Source: a virus. Taken from it: 38,920 nt of DNA. Below the pieces are notes generated by a model. It worked only from the letters and a program-made list of their open reading frames with translations. It had not been told where the DNA came from and did not search any database. The stretch's first letter is position 1, and every line of letters begins with the position of its first letter. Made by a program: the position numbers and the translations under genes. Positions 6,297 through 35,783 of this stretch are shown here, one piece after another. The DNA is taken from the IMG/VR virus record IMGVR_UViG_3300044703_000143, positions 1 to 38,920 of that record. One strand, 5' to 3'.

Positions 6297-6680
6297 TCAG
6301 TTGCCTCCGGTGGCGGTTGCTGAGGGGCGCCGCGAGCCAAGGTTCCGATCGGCGGGAGTTACGGCTCCACCCCGGGTTTCAGGCCCCGGAGCGTCGGAAT
6401 CAGCAGGGGCGGCGGGCGAAAGCCCGCCGCCCTTCTCTTTGGCGAGGAGCTCGCGGAGCTCCGCGCCGATCGCGGTGGTCCGGACCTGCCAGCCCCCGCG
6501 CCATGCGATGATGTGAACGAGGTTGAGGCGCTCCGCGGCCTGGGCGTTGCGCTGATCGCCCTCGCCCTCGTCGAAGCAATCGAGGCCGTCGTCGGACAGG
6601 CTCAACATGAAGGCGCGGACGCCGGCTGGAAGGCCGGCAATGAGATCCGCGGCCGCTATGGTGATCGCGCCGGGCCTCAT
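6297..6680 (-). CDS. Hypothetical early protein, 127 aa
   Basis: No family recognised. ATG at 6680 overlaps the GapR-like stop (ATGA). The N-terminal 85 residues look like a compact alpha/beta or winged-helix fold ([20 protein letters not shown] then [17 protein letters not shown]); the rest is a low-complexity Pro/Ala/Arg tail. Sits between GapR-like and ParB-like genes, so a DNA-linked function is possible. Confidence 0.6.
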
Positions 6681-6919
6681 GCCATTCCCAGGGCGGCTTT
6701 GTAGGCCTCGATCATGGCCTCGGACTCCTGCCGATCGTGCGTCTCCATCTTGCGGAGGCGCACGATCGCCCGGATCGTCTTCGTGTCGTAGCCGCGGGCC
6801 TTGGCCTCGGCGTAGACGTCCTTCACGTCGTCGGCCGCGGCCTTCTTCTCCTCCTCGCCGCGCTCGATCCTTTCGATCAGCAGGCGCAGCTCATCGGCCG
6901 CAATGGTGCCTTCAGCCAT
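6677..6919 (-). CDS. GapR-like DUF2312 protein
   Basis: An 80-residue protein with the hallmarks of DUF2312: [45 protein letters not shown] and a C-terminal YKAALGM. GapR of Caulobacter is an essential nucleoid protein that clamps overtwisted, AT-rich DNA ahead of forks and polymerases. Length equals the family norm and all segments are present. ATG at 6919 sits eight bases inside the upstream gene. A phage copy beside ParB-like and DNA-motor genes suggests a role in phage DNA topology or takeover of host nucleoid function (inference). Confidence 0.88.
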
Positions 6920-8425: not shown

Positions 8426-8782
8426 CTAGGAGCCCGTGGCGACGGCTTCACCGAGGGCGCCGTCGTCATTCGCGGCGGCCGGCGCCACCTCCGGGGCGCT
8501 GGCGATCGTCTGACGCCCCATATTGTCGTTGTCCGCGACGCGCCTGGGCGGCGCCATGCGGATCTCGACGCCCTCGCGAGGCGAGACGCCGGCGGAAATT
8601 CCGTGCGTGATCTCGAAGGCGGCGCCGTATGTCGCCCCGCACTCGAGGTTGTCGCACTGAAGGTTGATTTGAGCGAGCGTCGGGACGACGATCCTGCTCG
8701 TGCGGATCTTCAGCTGGCCTTCGCAATGAAGGCACTTAAGGCTGGCGACCCGCGTCATTCCACGGTGAGCATTCCTAGACAT
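8426..8782 (-). CDS. ogr: Ogr/Delta-type late transcription activator
   Basis: Zinc-finger activator that, in P2 and P4, binds a dyad about 55 bp upstream of late transcription starts and recruits RNA polymerase. The signature is present: KCLHCEG (Cys-X2-Cys), then SRIVVPTLAQINLQC, then CDNLECGATY (Cys-X4-Cys), followed by an FEITHGIS segment typical of alphaproteobacterial members. The 118 residues are longer than P2 Ogr because of an unstructured C-terminal tail. ATG at 8782 has GGAG ten bases upstream; Met9 (8758) is an alternative start. Five matching dyads lie before the late genes in this window, so activator and targets fit together. It lies inside the early operon, so late expression would follow early transcription. 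Confidence 0.85.
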   Translation of the reverse strand: MSRNAHRGMTRVASLKCLHCEGQLKIRTSRIVVPTLAQINLQCDNLECGATYGAAFEITHGISAGVSPREGVEIRMAPPRRVADNDNMGRQTIASAPEVAPAAANDDGALGEAVATGS

Positions 8783-16670: not shown

Positions 16671-17036
16671 TTAAGCGGACTGCGCGCCAAGGCGCAGGGG
16701 GATGGTGAGGCGGGCGAAGCTGTTCGGGCCGGGCCGATCGGTGCGGTATCCCTCAATCCCGATTCCGACCTCGCTCGGAGTCGATCCGCGGGTGACGGCG
16801 ACGCGGGTGAGCTGCAGGCGAGTTTCCCAGCGATGGAGCGCGACTGCGACGGCTGCGAAGAGCTGCTGCAGGGTCCCGGGCGTCGACGGGGCGTCGACGA
16901 GCTCGAAGAGGAGGGAGCCGTAGTCGCGGCGCATGACGCGCGTTCCGATCGGCGTCGTGAGGATATCCTCGATCGACTGGGCGAGGTGAGCGTCGCCCTC
17001 GATCTCTGCGCCGGTGCGGGCGTTCATCCCAATCAT
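16671..17036 (-). CDS. W: Baseplate wedge protein gpW
   Basis: gpW/gp25-like baseplate subunit (121 residues): GMNARTGAEIEGDAHLAQSI then EDILTTPIGTRVMRRDYGS, the conserved core of the family, which resembles a lysozyme-like T4 gp25 fold. The start ATG 17036 overlaps the V stop as ATGA. In P2, W is followed by J; here it is followed by FI, so the J-I-H block is elsewhere. Confidence 0.93.
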   Translation of the reverse strand: MIGMNARTGAEIEGDAHLAQSIEDILTTPIGTRVMRRDYGSLLFELVDAPSTPGTLQQLFAAVAVALHRWETRLQLTRVAVTRGSTPSEVGIGIEGYRTDRPGPNSFARLTIPLRLGAQSA

Positions 17037-17605
17037 TGCGGCGGCCCGGAGACGGCGCCGCCGGCAGCGACGCCCGTGTGCTTGTGGCCCTTCAGGCTCT
17101 TCCCGCCGCCGACGACGTCGGTCTCGGCCGTCAATGTGCCGAAAACGCGCGCGTCGCCGTGGATCTCGACGTCGCCGTAGATCTTCACCGCTGCGCCGGT
17201 GACGTTGATCTCCACGCCGCCCGAGGCGTCGACGAGGACGGTCGCCCCGTCGGGGAGCTTCACCTCGAGCGCGTGGCCTTCGGGATCGTAGGCGAGCTCG
17301 GCGCCGTCGGCGAACTTGATCAGCTCGCGCTTGCCCTCGCCGGGCAAGGGGAAGTCGTCGCAGGCGAGGCCGCCGATGGCGAAGGCGCCCTCGATATCGC
17401 CGCCCGGGCAGATAAGAACGACTTGCTCGCCGACGCTGTGCGGGGAATAGGTGCGCGTCTCGCCGGCGCGGCGCTCGAGCCAATGGATCTTGTCGGTGCG
17501 GATCTCGCCCGTCTCGATCACGACACGGCCGCCCTCGACCTCAGCCACGCGGCCGAAGCGGACGAGCTCGCCGATCGCGGCGGTTTCTTCAGGATCCCTG
17601 GACAT
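17033..17605 (-). CDS. V: Baseplate spike protein gpV
   Basis: P2 gpV family central spike (190 residues): N-terminal OB domain (LVRFGRVAEVEGGRVVIETG, SVGEQVVLICPGGD), a beta-helical stem (DGATVLVDASGGVEINVTGA, VEIHGDARVFGTLTAET) and the C-terminal tip GHKHTGVAAGG, whose HxH motif binds iron at the tip of P2-type spikes. First gene of its late unit. ATG 17605 has no Shine-Dalgarno; a -10-like TACCAT lies six bases upstream and the late dyad 44 bases upstream, so the mRNA may begin at the ATG. Confidence 0.95.
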   Translation of the reverse strand: MSRDPEETAAIGELVRFGRVAEVEGGRVVIETGEIRTDKIHWLERRAGETRTYSPHSVGEQVVLICPGGDIEGAFAIGGLACDDFPLPGEGKRELIKFADGAELAYDPEGHALEVKLPDGATVLVDASGGVEINVTGAAVKIYGDVEIHGDARVFGTLTAETDVVGGGKSLKGHKHTGVAAGGAVSGPPQ

Positions 17606-17675
17606 CGCCCCATGGTAGGGGCAGGGGCTGCGCCAGTGCGCGCCCGCGCTGTTGTAGCGGCGCGTTCCTACAACA
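17605..17675 (-). promoter_or_regulatory. Late promoter A (before V), Ogr-type dyad
   Basis: TGTTGT at 17650-17655 and ACAACA at 17670-17675 (14-base spacing); the arms extend to a perfect 8-bp repeat TGTTGTAG/CTACAACA. On the minus strand TACCAT (17617-17612) is a -10-like hexamer six bases from ATG 17605. The dyad centre lies 57 bp from the ATG, which fits activation near -55 if transcription starts at the ATG. It begins 18 bases after the glycosyltransferase stop. Confidence 0.8.
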
Positions 17676-17692: not shown

Positions 17693-18295
17693 CTAGAGGG
17701 CGAGGTCGATCTCCGCGACATGCCGAACTTCGGCCGACAGACCGTGGTCGACGACCGGCCGCATTCCTTCGGCCCTGAAGAGGCCGCAGATGTGGCCGTC
17801 CTCGCCGTCAGCCCCCATCCGGAACCAAGGCCTTGGAAGCTGGCGCAGATGGTGCGCCTTCATCAGGCAGACGCCGAGGCCGATCACGTCAACCTGCTCG
17901 AGGCCCTCCGGCTTCGGCTGAAGCCGCTGCACCTCTCCGTCGACCAGGTTGAACGCCGACGGAATGACCTCCTCGACTATGCGCTGGCGGTAATTGCAGC
18001 CGACGATCGGCAGGTCGTGAAGGGCGAGCCGGAAGAACGAGTCGCTCGGGAAGATCATATCGTCGTCCAGCCAAAGCAGATAATCGGCGTCGCGAGCAAT
18101 CGCTTGCTCGGCGAGCTGGTTTCGATTGTCCGCGACATAGGCGCCTTCGATCCCGCACGACCAGACCTCGGGAACCGTCGGGCGCTGGTTGTAGATGATC
18201 GGCGTCGTCAGTGTATGGATCAGCAGAGTGTCCCGGCAGATAACATGCTTCCACCTGGGGAAGCCGCGGGTCGGAGTCAGGATAGCAATCCGCAT
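17693..18295 (-). CDS. Small GT-A glycosyltransferase
   Basis: A 200-residue glycosyltransferase-like protein: N-terminal beta strand RIAILTPTRG, the NRNQLAEQAIARDADYL segment and the metal-binding DDD (residues 77-79) in LLWLDDDMIFP, then FFRLALHDLPIVGCNYR and a helical C-terminus with conserved aromatic residues. It fits the family-2-like GT-A enzymes found in phages. Last gene of the adhesin cassette and expressed late, so modification of virion proteins or of the cell surface during lysis are both possible; the acceptor is unknown. ATG 18295. No membrane segment. By eye its codon bias is slightly less GC-extreme than the structural genes. Confidence 0.8.
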   Translation of the reverse strand: MRIAILTPTRGFPRWKHVICRDTLLIHTLTTPIIYNQRPTVPEVWSCGIEGAYVADNRNQLAEQAIARDADYLLWLDDDMIFPSDSFFRLALHDLPIVGCNYRQRIVEEVIPSAFNLVDGEVQRLQPKPEGLEQVDVIGLGVCLMKAHHLRQLPRPWFRMGADGEDGHICGLFRAEGMRPVVDHGLSAEVRHVAEIDLAL

Positions 18296-20107: not shown

Positions 20108-20635
20108 TCAGAAGAGGAGTTGGTTGTCGAAGATCAGGGCGAGATCGCCTGGATCCTCGTTGGTGGCGGCTTCCCCCTGCGGCCCTTGCGGGCCGACGCC
20201 TCCGGTGAAGCCGCGGATCCCGAGGCGGGCGAAGCGGATCGAGAGACGTCGGCCGCCGTCGACGCGGCCGGCGATCGGCGCTGAGTTTGCGCGGAACGGC
20301 TCGCCCTCGAGGGGGCGAATCGGCGCCCCCTCGGGAGCGCGCGGGACCATCAGGGGAACGTCGTCGAGGACGATGATCTCGGGCCCGGGCAGCTCGAGGC
20401 GCAGGCGGACCTTGTAGCGGCGCTGGCGCTGGACGGTGCTCGTCTGCGCCCGCGTCATGGTGAGGGCGGCCACGCCGCCGGCGCGGTCGCTCCAGCTGAT
20501 CGTCGGGGTGAAAGGGAGGTCGGTCGCCTCGACGACGAGGACCGCGCCGGCGCAGTCGAGCGGCCGCTGCTCGGCGGCGTCCTCGAAAAGGCAGATCTGC
20601 CAGCTGGGCGTCTCCCCAGGGCGGAAGTCGAGCAT
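20108..20635 (-). CDS. Baseplate/appendage base protein (BppU-like), 175 aa
   Basis: First gene of the adhesin cassette. The beta-rich N-terminal 110 residues (MLDFRPGETPSWQICLFEDA, AGAVLVVEATDLPFTPTISW, RRYKVRLRLELP) look like BppU-type upper-baseplate domains that hold receptor-binding proteins; this is a pattern match only. A short collagen-like stretch GVGPQGPQGEAAT follows at about 149-160, with an acidic end. ATG 20635 has GAGG seven bases upstream, unlike the leaderless V, J and P starts. Confidence 0.55.
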   Translation of the reverse strand: MLDFRPGETPSWQICLFEDAAEQRPLDCAGAVLVVEATDLPFTPTISWSDRAGGVAALTMTRAQTSTVQRQRRYKVRLRLELPGPEIIVLDDVPLMVPRAPEGAPIRPLEGEPFRANSAPIAGRVDGGRRLSIRFARLGIRGFTGGVGPQGPQGEAATNEDPGDLALIFDNQLLF

Positions 20636-20665: not shown

Positions 20666-20734
20666 GAAGGCACCTTGGCGGAGGGTGAGGGGGAGGGCGC
20701 GGCCGCGCTGTTGTCGCGGCCCGATCCTACAACA
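20666..20734 (-). promoter_or_regulatory. Late promoter B (before adhesin cassette)
   Basis: TGTTGT 20709-20714 and ACAACA 20729-20734, again 14 bases apart; the right arm extends to CTACAACA, the left reads TGTTGTCG. A start near 20666 would place the dyad centre at -55 and leave a leader of about 30 bases with a Shine-Dalgarno. No good -10 hexamer seen (CAAGGT near 20677-20672 is weak). Confidence 0.65.
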
Positions 20735-20849: not shown

Positions 20850-21677
20850 CTAGAAGTCGTTCGCTGCTTCGCGACCTGCGGCGAGGGCCTCGGGCCGGTT
20901 GCTGATGATCAGTTCCTTCCCGGTGCCGTGAGAGACGGTATAGCGAAACTCGACCGGCTCGATCGCGAACTCGCCGAAGAACTCGCGGACCGCGGGCTTG
21001 TCGTTGATGGTGAGGATGAAGCTCCCCTTCATCGTGCGGAGACACTCGCGCAGCTCGGTATAGTCTTCGCGGGTGAAGAGCTCCTTCCCATAAAGCCCCT
21101 CGATCCCCCAGTAGGGCGGATCGATGAAGAACAGCTGCTTTTCGCGATCGTAGCGGCGGATGAAGGCGCCGAAGGGCAGTCGCTCGATCACGACGCCGGC
21201 GAGCCGCTCGTGCAGATCCTCGAGGACGGGCTGCAGCCTCGTCACGTCGAAGCGACCGGGCCGCAGGGGGCGCGCGGCGAAATTGATCCCCTCGCGGCGC
21301 GCGCCGTAGGCGGTGCATTGCAGGTAGAGGAAGCGCGCCGACCGCTCGAGATCGGTGAGAGTTTCTGGATCCGTCGCCTTCAGGCGATCGAACTCCGCGC
21401 GCGTCGTGATCTGGAACCGAAGCATGTCCATGAAGGCGACGTAGTGGCGCTGCAGGATCCGGAAGAACGTCGAGACGTCGCCGGAGAGATCGTTGATCAC
21501 TTCCTGCCGCGGTTTCGTCTCGCGACGAAGGAATACGCCGCCCATGCCGACGAACGGCTCGCAATAGCCCTGATGAGGGATGGCGTTGATGATTGCCGCG
21601 AGGCGACCGGCTAGCCGGCTCTTGCCGCCGATGTAGGGCGCGGGCGGCATGGTCGGCTGAATTGCAATCATGGTCAC
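20850..21677 (-). CDS. dam: Dam-type DNA adenine N6-methyltransferase
   Basis: D12-class methyltransferase of 275 residues. The SAM-binding motif is PFVGMGGVF (41-49), the catalytic motif is DPPY at 186-189, and the N-terminal YIGGKSRLAGRL and central YLQCTAYGARREGINFAARP segments fit phage Dam enzymes; GATC is the likely target but is not provable here. The start is GTG 21677, seven bases after AAAGGA and overlapping the com stop (GTGA); Met3 is a secondary candidate. It lies in an Ogr-type late unit just after com, like Mu com-mom. Methylating late progeny DNA would protect it from restriction in the next host (inference). A stem around the start may block translation without Com. Confidence 0.88.
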   Translation of the reverse strand: MTMIAIQPTMPPAPYIGGKSRLAGRLAAIINAIPHQGYCEPFVGMGGVFLRRETKPRQEVINDLSGDVSTFFRILQRHYVAFMDMLRFQITTRAEFDRLKATDPETLTDLERSARFLYLQCTAYGARREGINFAARPLRPGRFDVTRLQPVLEDLHERLAGVVIERLPFGAFIRRYDREKQLFFIDPPYWGIEGLYGKELFTREDYTELRECLRTMKGSFILTINDKPAVREFFGEFAIEPVEFRYTVSHGTGKELIISNRPEALAAGREAANDF

Positions 21678-21847
21678 TTTGAGTTCCTTTCGGCCGTTCC
21701 TTGGGCGGTCGGGCAAGGGCTCAAAGGCCTCAGATTGTTGAACGCGCCGCACCTGCGGCACTTGATCTCGATCAAACCGGAGATCGCGGCTTTTGCGGCT
21801 TTGAAGAGGAGCGCCCCGCAACCGGCGCAGCGATGAGATTCCTTCAC
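21674..21847 (-). CDS. com: Com-like zinc-finger translational regulator, 57 aa
   Basis: A short gene easily missed: GTG at 21847, stop TGA at 21676-21674. The product reads KESHRCAGCGALLFKA, then GLIEIKCRRCGAFNNLRPLS. Cys7-X2-Cys10 and Cys30-X2-Cys33 form a zinc finger, and the LLFKA, IEIKC and RCG.FN.LRP segments match the Com family of phage Mu. Mu Com binds mom mRNA and opens a structure that hides the mom start. Here com overlaps a dam-type gene by four bases (GTGA), so dam is the presumed target. No strong Shine-Dalgarno is seen; an inverted repeat ends eight bases before its start. Confidence 0.85.
   Translation of the reverse strand: MKESHRCAGCGALLFKAAKAAISGLIEIKCRRCGAFNNLRPLSPCPTAQGTAERNSK
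21677..21726 (-). promoter_or_regulatory. Predicted stem around the dam start codon
   Basis: On the mRNA, CTTTGAG (21726-21720) pairs with CTCAAAG (21683-21677), whose last G is the first base of the GTG start. An inner hairpin CCTTG/CAAGG (21718-21714 with 21703-21699) lies inside, and the AAAGGA Shine-Dalgarno (21690-21685) is enclosed. The layout resembles the Mu mom leader that Com opens. Confidence 0.5.
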
Positions 21848-21855
21848 TGGAAAGT

Positions 21856-21917
21856 ACCCGTATCTTGTCCCGCGCGAGGCGGCGACGAGCTCGGCCGAGG
21901 CCGGGCAGGATACGGGT
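21856..21917 (-). promoter_or_regulatory. Inverted repeat in the com leader
   Basis: ACCCGTATC (21856-21864 on plus) and GATACGGGT (21909-21917) form a perfect 9-bp stem. After an A-C mismatch in the mRNA it extends by two pairs and, past another mismatch, by four more. The loop contains a smaller CTCGGCCGAG palindrome. The 3' arm ends eight bases before the com GTG, so it could hide the com ribosome-binding region or be a Com-binding element. Confidence 0.5.
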
Positions 21918-21978
21918 GGCAGCCCGTCGAACTGGCGAGCGCTGGCGACGCTCGATCGGCGACCGCGAGGCCGTCGAC

Positions 21979-22048
21979 GTCCCGAATCCTATTTGGGCGT
22001 CAGATCCGCGACGAGCCGTCCCTGTTGTAAGAACGGCTCGCGACAACA
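21979..22048 (-). promoter_or_regulatory. Late promoter C (before com-dam)
   Basis: TGTTGT 22023-22028 and ACAACA 22043-22048 with 14 bases between. On the minus strand TAGGAT (21991-21986) is a fair -10; a start near 21979 puts the dyad centre at about -56 and leaves a leader of about 130 bases. The asymmetric inner bases point opposite to the other copies. Together with 22049-22228 and the com leader this explains the 380-base stretch without a gene. Confidence 0.7.
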
Positions 22049-22228
22049 GCGGCTGCGGAACTTTCTCCATTCTGGCGAAAGCGCTGGACTCGGTTTGTAG
22101 AATTAGCGAGGGCGACGCGCCGGTGTGCCCGGTGGGGAGACTGAGCGCGGCCCGGGCCGCGGGAGGTGCGGCTGGCAGGTCGCGGTCGGCGGTTGGCGCC
22201 GTCGGCCCTCCCCTCTCTTCTCCTCGAG
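22049..22228. other. Intergenic region between fibre unit and promoter C
   Basis: I see no gene here. It holds a 16-bp perfect palindrome of C and G (22146-22161), which may act in termination of the fibre unit. At 22094-22104 the 11-mer TTTGTAGAATT is identical to the left half and centre of the repressor operator at 9818-9828. No U-tract terminator is visible. Confidence 0.4.
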
Positions 22229-27681: not shown

Positions 27682-28308
27682 TCACCTCTCCAAAAGATCG
27701 CCGTTTTCGGCCTGGAGGGGCTCGCCCTCCTCGGTGCTGAGGAAGGCCGTCTGCTCGGCGCGCATGTCGGCCGTCGCGACGATCCGGACGAAGCCGGCGA
27801 CGCGCGCTGCGCCGACGATGTTGAGGCCGGCGCCCGCCTTCAGGCTTTGGATGAACTGCAGGTGCGAGCGCAGCGGCTTCACTCGCGCGATCTCGCGGAC
27901 GATCTTCTCGGCGAAGGCCGCGGTCGACCGCTCGCCGCCGCCAAGGCCCAGATCGAGCCGGACCTGGAAAACGTGCGGATCGAGGCGCGGCTGCGCCTCA
28001 AACCATTCCACGAGCTCGAGCAGCTCGTCGAAGCCGGCGAGGACCGCCTCGACGGCCGCGCGCGTTCCCTTGCGGCGCTGCAGGTCGATCGCCCGCGCGA
28101 CCTCGAGCCGCTTCCGCTGCTCGGACCAGGCCGATTCCCAAGCATCGATGCTGAGGCCCCAGGCAAGCCAGGGGAGGAGCTCGACGGGGCAGGTCCAAGG
28201 ATCCCAGATCGAGGGCAGGGGAATCGGGACAGCCGAAACCCGCGTGACCGTCGTCGCGATCGCGCGCTCGAGCGGCTTCGCGTTCGGGGGCAGGAGGGCG
28301 GCCGTCAT
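27682..28308 (-). CDS. I: Baseplate protein gpI
   Basis: P2 gpI family (208 residues): LLPPNAKPLERAIATTVTRV, PLPSIWDPWTCPVELLPWLA and WESAWSEQRKRLEVARAIDL are the conserved landmarks, including the PW.LAW core. It builds the baseplate wedge with J. ATG 28308 overlaps the J stop (ATGA); the longer frame to 28347 is not needed. Followed by H. Confidence 0.93.
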   Translation of the reverse strand: MTAALLPPNAKPLERAIATTVTRVSAVPIPLPSIWDPWTCPVELLPWLAWGLSIDAWESAWSEQRKRLEVARAIDLQRRKGTRAAVEAVLAGFDELLELVEWFEAQPRLDPHVFQVRLDLGLGGGERSTAAFAEKIVREIARVKPLRSHLQFIQSLKAGAGLNIVGAARVAGFVRIVATADMRAEQTAFLSTEEGEPLQAENGDLLER

Positions 28309-29201
28309 TCGCCGACGACCGCGAAGCTGAGGTTGACGCTCGTGCACCAGGGCGCCTGCGTCGCGCCGAGGACCAGGTTCCCCGGCGAGGTGAGGTCGAC
28401 GCGCTGGACGCCGTCGACGTGAAGGGCCGCGTAGAGGGCCGAGATCGTCACGTCGCGGCCGAGGCGGCGCGCGGCCGCGAGATAGGCCTGCAGGCTCGCC
28501 TCGGCCGCCGCCATGACGATCGTCGGATCCGGCCCCTGGTAGACGTAGAGCTTGGCGAGGATCGCGAACTCGACGACGTCGGCCGACTGGACGGTGACGA
28601 GGTCGGTGAGGGGGCGGACCTCGCGGCCGTTGACGATCGCTTCGACCTTGGCGAGCAGCTCGGCCGAGGCCTCGCCGTTTCCAAGTCTCGAGAGGACGGT
28701 GACGACGACGGATCCCGGCGACGGGCTGGTCGCGCTCGCGTCGAGGACGTCGGCGTCGGCCGAGCGCGCGTGGAAGACGTAGGCGAGCTCGGGCCCGGCG
28801 ACGCTGAAGCTCTCGGGCGCGAGGATGACGCGCTGGCGCAGCGCGTCGTCGTCCTCGAGAACGGCCGCGGTGCCGGCGACGGGATCCGCCGGCGTGAGCT
28901 CGAGGCGGGCCACGCCGACCAGGGCGGCGACGTGATCGAGGTCCGCGCCGGCCGCGAAGGCGACCATGACGCTGCGCGCCCGATCGTTGAACTCCTGCCG
29001 GATCAGGAGCTCGCGGTAGGCGAAGACCTGCAGGAGCTTGACGACCGGCTCCGATTCGACGGTCGCGTCGAATCCGGGCATGGCGATCTGCATCGATGCC
29101 ACCAGTGCGTCGAAGATCTGCTCGAAGCTGAGCTGCTCCACCACGTCGGGGGGAGGCAGGCGCGAGAGATCCACTGCGGTCGAGTTTGAGCTGCCGGACA
29201 T
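28305..29201 (-). CDS. J: Baseplate wedge protein gpJ
   Basis: P2 gpJ/Mu gp47 family (298 residues): DLSRLPPPDVVEQLSFEQIF, the ESEPVVKLLQVFAYRELLIR motif and AAGADLDHVAALVGVARLEL are diagnostic. First gene of its late unit. I choose ATG 29201 over ATG 29210: there is no Shine-Dalgarno before either, and 29201 sits at the same distance from the late dyad as the V and P starts (44-45 bases from the arm). This suggests a leaderless mRNA. Confidence 0.93.
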   Translation of the reverse strand: MSGSSNSTAVDLSRLPPPDVVEQLSFEQIFDALVASMQIAMPGFDATVESEPVVKLLQVFAYRELLIRQEFNDRARSVMVAFAAGADLDHVAALVGVARLELTPADPVAGTAAVLEDDDALRQRVILAPESFSVAGPELAYVFHARSADADVLDASATSPSPGSVVVTVLSRLGNGEASAELLAKVEAIVNGREVRPLTDLVTVQSADVVEFAILAKLYVYQGPDPTIVMAAAEASLQAYLAAARRLGRDVTISALYAALHVDGVQRVDLTSPGNLVLGATQAPWCTSVNLSFAVVGE

Positions 29202-29271
29202 TGCGGCCATGTCGGGCCGCGCGCGGGATGGCCGCTAGGCGCGCCTGTTGTAGCGGCGCCTTCCTACAACA
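29202..29271 (-). promoter_or_regulatory. Late promoter D (before J)
   Basis: TGTTGT 29246-29251 and ACAACA 29266-29271, with arms extending to TGTTGTAG/CTACAACA. The dyad differs from the one before V at a single base. CGACAT (29214-29209) sits where the -10 should be, seven bases before ATG 29201; it is a weak match. Confidence 0.78.
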
Positions 29272-34738: not shown

Positions 34739-35596
34739 TCAGCAGTCGGTTTTGGCGAAATTGCCCTGCTCGCCGGTGCCGACGGGGCGGCGGCTCGAGC
34801 TGGCGTCGGTGGTTTCGAGCTTCCCCTTGAGCTCGGTGAGCTGGCCGGAGAGGGCCGCGATCTGGCCGTCAGCCTTCGTCGCGTAGGTGCCGATCGCCGC
34901 GGTGACGGCCTTCCCGAGCTCGGTCGCGAACGCGGCCTGGTCGAAGGGAGCGGCCGCGTTGGTCGCGGGCTCTTCCTTCTTCGGCTGCTCGGCGGGGGTG
35001 CCGGTGAACTTGGCGGCGAAGCCGTCGAGGACGCCCTTCAGCTTGGACGTCCAGTCGTCGGCGCCGCCCGGCGCCGAGGCGTCGAGCTCGAAGGAAACCT
35101 CCATCGCCTCGGAGAAGTGGTTGCCGGCGTCCGTCTTCCGGGCGGCGAGCGGGTTCACCTTCGCCTTGCCGGCGAACTCGAGCATCTCGGTTCCGAGGGA
35201 GGCGGGATTGTCGGTGATCGCGAGGCCGACCAGGCCGGCCTTGCCGGTGCCGGCGAAGTTCGGCGCGATCTCGCACGAGGTGAAGAGCTTCTGGCCCTTC
35301 TTGTTGATCGCGAGCAGCTGGTCGTTGACGTCGAACTGCGCCTCGAGCGCGCGCTTTTTGACGGTCTTCCCGTCGAGCTGCATCTCGAAGTCGGTGGCGC
35401 GGAGGGCGACGACGGAGCCGTAGGCATTGAACGGCGGCTCGGGGCTGAAGCCGGCGATATGCTCGCAGTTGATCCGGGCCGTGTAAGTGGCCGGGGAGTA
35501 GCCCGCGGCCATTTCATTGATCCAGTTCAGGTCGATCGTGCGGCCGTCGACGGTGGCGCCTTCGACGGCGATGCGGAAAAAGCGAGTGAGGGGCAT
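34739..35596 (-). CDS. O: Capsid scaffold/protease gpO
   Basis: P2 gpO family internal scaffold and maturation protease (285 residues). The N-terminal half has the serine-protease residues at P2-like positions: Asp17 (or Asp22), His46 in NCEHIAGFSP and Ser107 in KLFTSCE. The C-terminal half is a scaffolding coiled coil (ALSGQLTELKGKLETTDA). ATG 35596 has GGAG five bases upstream. First gene of the leftward head operon, divergent from P. Confidence 0.94.
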   Translation of the reverse strand: MPLTRFFRIAVEGATVDGRTIDLNWINEMAAGYSPATYTARINCEHIAGFSPEPPFNAYGSVVALRATDFEMQLDGKTVKKRALEAQFDVNDQLLAINKKGQKLFTSCEIAPNFAGTGKAGLVGLAITDNPASLGTEMLEFAGKAKVNPLAARKTDAGNHFSEAMEVSFELDASAPGGADDWTSKLKGVLDGFAAKFTGTPAEQPKKEEPATNAAAPFDQAAFATELGKAVTAAIGTYATKADGQIAALSGQLTELKGKLETTDASSSRRPVGTGEQGNFAKTDC

Positions 35597-35668: not shown

Positions 35669-35783
35669 CGGCCAAAAGGGACCGGGAAGGGGGCGACGGT
35701 AAAGCGAGGCGTGTTGTAGGAAGCGCCCGCTACAACAGTGGCAGAGGGCGGGAGGGGCGCAGCCGCGGTTAGCGTCGCCGCCA
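35669..35783. promoter_or_regulatory. Late promoter region E (divergent P / O)
   Basis: One dyad, TGTTGT 35712-35717 and ACAACA 35732-35737 (arms TGTTGTAG/CTACAACA), lies between the divergent O and P genes. Rightward, TAGCGT (35770-35775) is a -10-like hexamer seven bases from ATG 35783. Leftward, a start near 35669 would give O a leader of about 72 bases. I found no second dyad in the 186-base gap, so one site probably serves both directions, whereas P2 has separate promoters for P and O. Confidence 0.75.

Follow-up and report, generated by a model that had tools for sequence, protein, structure and literature searches.

The com-dam gene pair of a P2-like phage is best read, with a probability that we put at about 0.72, as a late-expressed DNA-modification cassette under a translational switch of the Mu Com type. 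Comparison of related loci revealed that com and its RNA target move together, whereas the effector genes behind them are exchanged. The com-mom switch of Mu, known mainly from that one phage, is a classic example of translational activation. The phage analysed here is represented by a 38,920-base IMG/VR record (hereafter the window), and profile matches revealed a P2-like gene arrangement comprising tail and baseplate proteins, sheath, capsid, scaffold and small terminase subunit.

Com and its neighbouring methylase gene

The com gene (21674..21847, minus strand) encodes a 57-aa zinc-ribbon translational regulator. Its product matched PF10122 (Zn_ribbon_Com) at 31.3 bits (E 1.4e-7, curated cut-off 22.9) and phrog_6417, annotated 'translational regulator', with an E value of 4e-8. 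All four cysteines of the CxxC...CxxC zinc ribbon (C7, C10, C30 and C33) are invariant in alignment A1. The original prediction had placed this zinc-finger gene in the Com family on the basis of its CxxCGALLFKA and IEIKCRRCGAFNNLRP landmarks and had described a GTGA overlap with dam; the profile search bore out the family, and the landmarks, overlap and coordinates all hold. The overlap is formed by the com stop codon and the GTG start of dam, with an alternative ATG lying 6 nt downstream, at 21671.

The dam gene (20850..21677, minus strand) encodes a D12-class N6-adenine DNA methyltransferase. Its product matched PF02086 (MethyltransfD12) with 67.7 bits against a cut-off of 22 (E 1.7e-18) and phrog_56 with an E value of 3e-67, and its translation contains an FVGMGG motif together with DPPYW, which corresponds to the catalytic DPPY motif. 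The enzyme had been called Dam-type, which is correct at the level of the class (D12) but does not extend to the NCBIfam dam model, TIGR00571, for which the product scored 62.3 bits, below the cut-off of 114.85. The pairing of Com with a D12-class adenine methylase in a P2-like phage that encodes Ogr was likewise confirmed, by the matches to PF02086 and PF04606.

Three further features of the window were recorded. GATC is over-represented across it (540 occurrences against 431.6 expected from its trinucleotides), a GapR-like DNA-binding protein is encoded at 6677-6919 on the minus strand (PF10073, E 3.6e-31), and the tail region includes a glycosyltransferase-like protein (17693-18295, minus strand) with a weak match to Anp1.

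Repeated dyads upstream of late operons

The sequence GTTGT-N14-ACAAC is present in five copies in the window, and of all half-site spacings from 6 to 23 only this one had a match. The copy at 22024..22047 (minus strand), 177 bp before com, is therefore a real element and not a chance occurrence, and is the putative Ogr-dependent operator of com-dam. The remaining copies lie at 17651..17674, upstream of a V-like baseplate gene (17033-17605, minus strand); at 20710..20733, upstream of the gene at 20108-20635 (minus strand); at 29247..29270, upstream of a baseplate J-like gene (28305-29210, minus strand); and at 35713..35736, upstream of a scaffold/protease O-like gene (34739-35596, minus strand) and just before a divergent plus-strand ORF at 35738. 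All five thus precede minus-strand late genes, with starts at 17605, 20635, 21847, 29210 and 35596. An intrinsic terminator was rejected as the main reading of the dyad because every copy sits upstream of operons.

The window encodes an Ogr/Delta-like zinc-finger late activator (8426..8782, minus strand; PF04606, 41.3-42.9 bits against 26.3), so the dyads are likely to represent an Ogr-type late promoter with a changed operator, promoter activity being deduced from sequence. An Ogr homologue and repeated dyads upstream of late operons are features shared with P2. However, the consensus of the Ogr-dependent late promoters of P2 is TGT-N12-ACA (PMC3931495), whereas the dyad described here is GTTGT-N14-ACAAC, and a search of the window for the P2 consensus returned 0 matches. 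An Ogr-type late element had been proposed upstream of com; the element is real, repeated and accompanied by an Ogr homologue, but it is not the P2 element.

Two tandem Com-type hairpins

Mu-like Com binds a short hairpin whose loop has C in first position and includes GA, the Mu version being AUGC-CUGCGA-GCAU (PMC6483171). Two such hairpins are found in tandem on the minus strand of the window. H1 (21718..21729, GGC-CUUUGA-GCC) lies within the com coding region and is intact, with 3 bp, and in H2 (21694..21708, CCGC-CCAAGGA-ACGG) the closing pair is a C-A mismatch on comparison with the relatives L087, L076 and L081.

To place these hairpins among their relatives, 122 non-redundant com loci were searched over the 150 nt after the zinc finger for fully Watson-Crick stems. 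C..GA hairpins of at least 4 bp were present in 85 loci, against a mean of 8.1 and a maximum of 15 in dinucleotide shuffles. The next commonest of the 64 loop types occurred in 17 loci, and flanking control regions gave 5 and 3. When G-U pairs and 3-bp stems were allowed, H1 (GGC-C..GA-GCC) was found in 110/122 loci and H2 (mostly NCGC-C..GA-GCGN) in 102/122. Among com loci the H2 motif falls in each of the three codon phases, which shows that its conservation lies in the RNA. In a 39-sequence gapless alignment the closing H2 pair was AU in 11 sequences, GC in 8, GU in 7, CG in 6 and UA in 5, with 2 unpaired; the gapless subgroup alignment (A3) was used in place of an all-group MAFFT alignment (A2), which had misaligned the H2 arms and was left out. 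The hairpins are therefore both conserved and covarying, with the kinship of the sequences inflating the covariation statistics.

A covariance model (R1) built from a 39-sequence set of relatives, with the window excluded, had its top match in the window at 21688-21733 (24.9 bits, E 6e-6). Its best score on 41 com-less dam loci was 14.5 bits, and these com-less relatives are without the hairpins. Part of the R1 score is shared com sequence, and the frame and covariation tests are for that reason the stronger evidence. The com hairpins had no match in Rfam.

Predicted occlusion of the dam start

The 3′ arm of H1, UUUGAGcCCUU (21715-21725), can pair with the ribosome-binding region of dam (AAGGAACUCAAA / AAGGaaCUCAAA, 21678..21689, minus strand) in the MFE fold and in the partition function. 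Within the computed ensemble the dam Shine-Dalgarno sequence and start are mostly paired, and enforcing H1 partly frees them. The H1 arm is hence predicted to occlude the dam start. Across 85 loci, with permutation within effector class, the H1 arm fitted its own effector start better than other starts of the same class (0/2000 permutations as good, a statistic inflated by the kinship of the loci, which was kept in). The H1 arm is thus co-adapted with its own effector start. The whole region of the window folds mildly more stably than shuffles (z -1.35), and this, together with the C-A mismatch in H2, suggests that the Com site of the window may be weaker than that of L087.

The arrangement resembles Mu com-mom, in which a Com zinc ribbon gene likewise lies upstream of, and overlaps, a DNA-modification gene, a C..GA hairpin lies just before the effector start, and the start codon is held in an inhibitory structure (PMC6483171), as is predicted in the window. 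It differs from Mu in that the effector is a D12 methylase rather than Mom, in having two tandem hairpins, in belonging to a P2-like phage with Ogr, and in that the stem predicted to occlude the start is formed with the 3′ arm of H1, where Mu has a separate downstream hairpin. We infer the following sequence of events for this phage. An Ogr-like activator at the 22024-22047 dyad would give rise to a com-dam transcript on which the dam ribosome site would be sequestered by pairing with the 3′ arm of H1. Com, made first, would bind the C..GA loop in H1, perhaps also the one in H2, stabilising the local H1 hairpin and so releasing the dam start. Dam would then depend on Com and be made only late, which would leave the DNA of the lysogen unmethylated, and its methylation would presumably shield the progeny DNA.

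This mixture of Mu and P2 control had been foreseen in the original prediction, and a com-methylase pair does indeed lie in an Ogr-encoding phage, but the combination is not unique to it. Com-dam is already known from Pseudomonas phage B3 (B3ORF47-48), where it is annotated as such; there too Com directly overlaps a Dam-type methylase and both hairpin types are present, but B3 is classed as a Beetrevirus, not as P2-like, and its effector starts 31 nt inside com. Among P2-family phages, a DNA methyltransferase gene immediately follows com in the Peduoviridae members Smp131 and AP3. The AP3 pair follows the tail-fibre genes, as in the window, although its methylase is annotated as N4/N6-class, whereas the pair in Smp131 is found behind the portal gene Q.

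A structured leader upstream of com or dam

Upstream of the 22024-22047 dyad lies a structured leader RNA of about 105 nt (22113..22217, minus strand), which scored 71.1 bits with a covariance model (R2) that includes the window sequence. It folds as an outer helix closing three hairpins, followed by a 3′ hairpin, and the outer helix and an extended form of the 3′ hairpin look mutually exclusive. The 27 distinct model matches are paired in 95.1% of cells, with both sides altered in 23 of 28 pairs, in an alignment that was fitted to R2 and so leans towards the model; slid versions of the alignment gave at most 10 such pairs. Nearly all model matches are directly upstream of com or dam, as in the alphaproteobacterial phage loci L005 (4820-4926), L076 (4871-4978) and L081 (4874-4983). 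A search of genomes gave five matches, 4 of which precede dam or a com-C5 cassette and the 5th another gene. Rfam contained no match to the leader, only weak matches elsewhere. In the window itself the leader folds no better than shuffles (z 0.34), and it may therefore be decayed here.

At about 22082-22098 of the window, after the leader, lies CTACAAACCGAGTCCAGC, which is similar to the sequence at which dam starts (ACAAATGGAGTCCAGC) in the leader-dam phages L338 and L340. It is probably a relic of a dam start, and such a remnant past the leader suggests that insertion of the dyad-com module separated the leader from dam. A leader-dam unit was also observed in L125 (3791) and L080 (4173), phages that in addition carry com with a C5 methylase.

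Exchange of effectors behind com

A variety of effectors follows com. Among 192 unique com loci, 75 had an N4/N6 methylase, 45 a C5 methylase, 40 a D12 methylase and 5 Mom, the classes being confirmed for representatives with PF01555, PF00145, PF02086 and PF25680. The nearest homologues of the window com precede enzymes other than this dam. The reverse also holds, with 0 Com matches among the 49 nearest viral dam contigs and ten further alphaproteobacterial genomes that encode a dam of this kind, and the idea that Com generally accompanies this dam lineage was accordingly rejected; the one com-bearing locus in the dam-relative search, L064, has a distant dam.

The exchange is seen most directly in L087, a P2-like phage with Ogr that carries mom (PF25680, E 4e-65) where the window has dam. 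The two are syntenic on both sides, with protein identities of 79% for the fibre, 82% for the H-like, 65% for the V-like and 78% for the W-like protein. DNA similarity of 74% extends through the dyad, com and the hairpins up to position 5163 of L087 (about 21686 of the window), ends just before the effector ribosome site and start, and resumes past the effector. Com therefore moves with its RNA target while the effectors are swapped, and com with its hairpins appears to be a portable control module before at least four unrelated DNA-modifying enzymes.

Many loci in the unclassified remainder have com, a small ORF and then either a P-loop ATPase-GNAT protein (phrog_11143) or a ParB-methyltransferase-like protein (phrog_5475), both families being of no known function. 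The former arrangement was observed in L153 (2819-3955) and also in L126, L202, L213 and L140, and the latter, with a ParB-like/methyltransferase fusion, in L137 (2864-4348) and L146 (2864-4339). By its association with Com, the ATPase-GNAT protein is a candidate new DNA-modification system.

Drozdz et al. in 2012 reportedly found an adenine methylase replacing mom in Mu-like prophages of Haemophilus and Neisseria. No description of Com with swapped effectors was found in the literature searched. What is new here is the mobility of com plus its target with exchanged effectors, the placing of two conserved hairpins on the RNA, and the predictions to which these findings lead.

Alternative explanations

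A simpler account would be plain translational coupling, in which ribosomes ending com re-initiate at GTGA and make dam, leaving Com as a passenger or with some other role. The GTGA overlap of the window could by itself couple translation, and in many relatives the com stop and the effector start are no more than a few nucleotides apart. However, in many others the effector starts inside com or downstream of the com stop, and the C..GA hairpins keep a constant position and occur in all codon frames, so we regard coupling as an improbable explanation. Far less credible still is that the hairpins are a by-product of the conserved C-terminal residues of Com, with no RNA site. Conserved RPxSP/RPxEP residues are indeed encoded in the hairpin region, but one and the same nucleotide motif occurs in three frames, the covarying pair 27-39 falls at third codon positions in the largest group, and the C..GA loop is the independently determined target of Com (PMC6483171).

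As for timing, Dam might also be made in the lysogen, by read-through or under the structured leader, and regulate or protect the prophage rather than act only late. Most of the nearest dam homologues are without com, which means that Dam can be of use without control by Com; moreover, the window has a leader upstream of the dyad. Against this, com-dam has its own dyad, and the Com hairpin module lies between leader and dam. Lysogenic expression is thus unlikely, if somewhat less so than coupling.

Implications for phage DNA modification

Taken together, these data point to the Com switch as a mobile module that retains its RNA target although the enzyme that follows changes, and suggest how phages tightly control potentially harmful DNA-modifying enzymes. 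The com loci constitute a large natural data set for the rule of Com-RNA recognition, and the leader is a candidate new RNA family before phage methylases. Association with Com, in turn, predicts new DNA-modification enzymes. More tentatively, and with the odds slightly against it, phage DNA-modification genes may be governed by two freely combining portable RNA devices: the Com-plus-tandem-hairpin switch, placed before at least four unrelated enzymes and probably before the ATPase-GNAT and ParB-methyltransferase proteins too, and the undescribed leader of about 105 nt, which is maybe a switch in its own right. If this is true, the ATPase-GNAT and ParB-methyltransferase proteins would be new DNA-modification enzymes.
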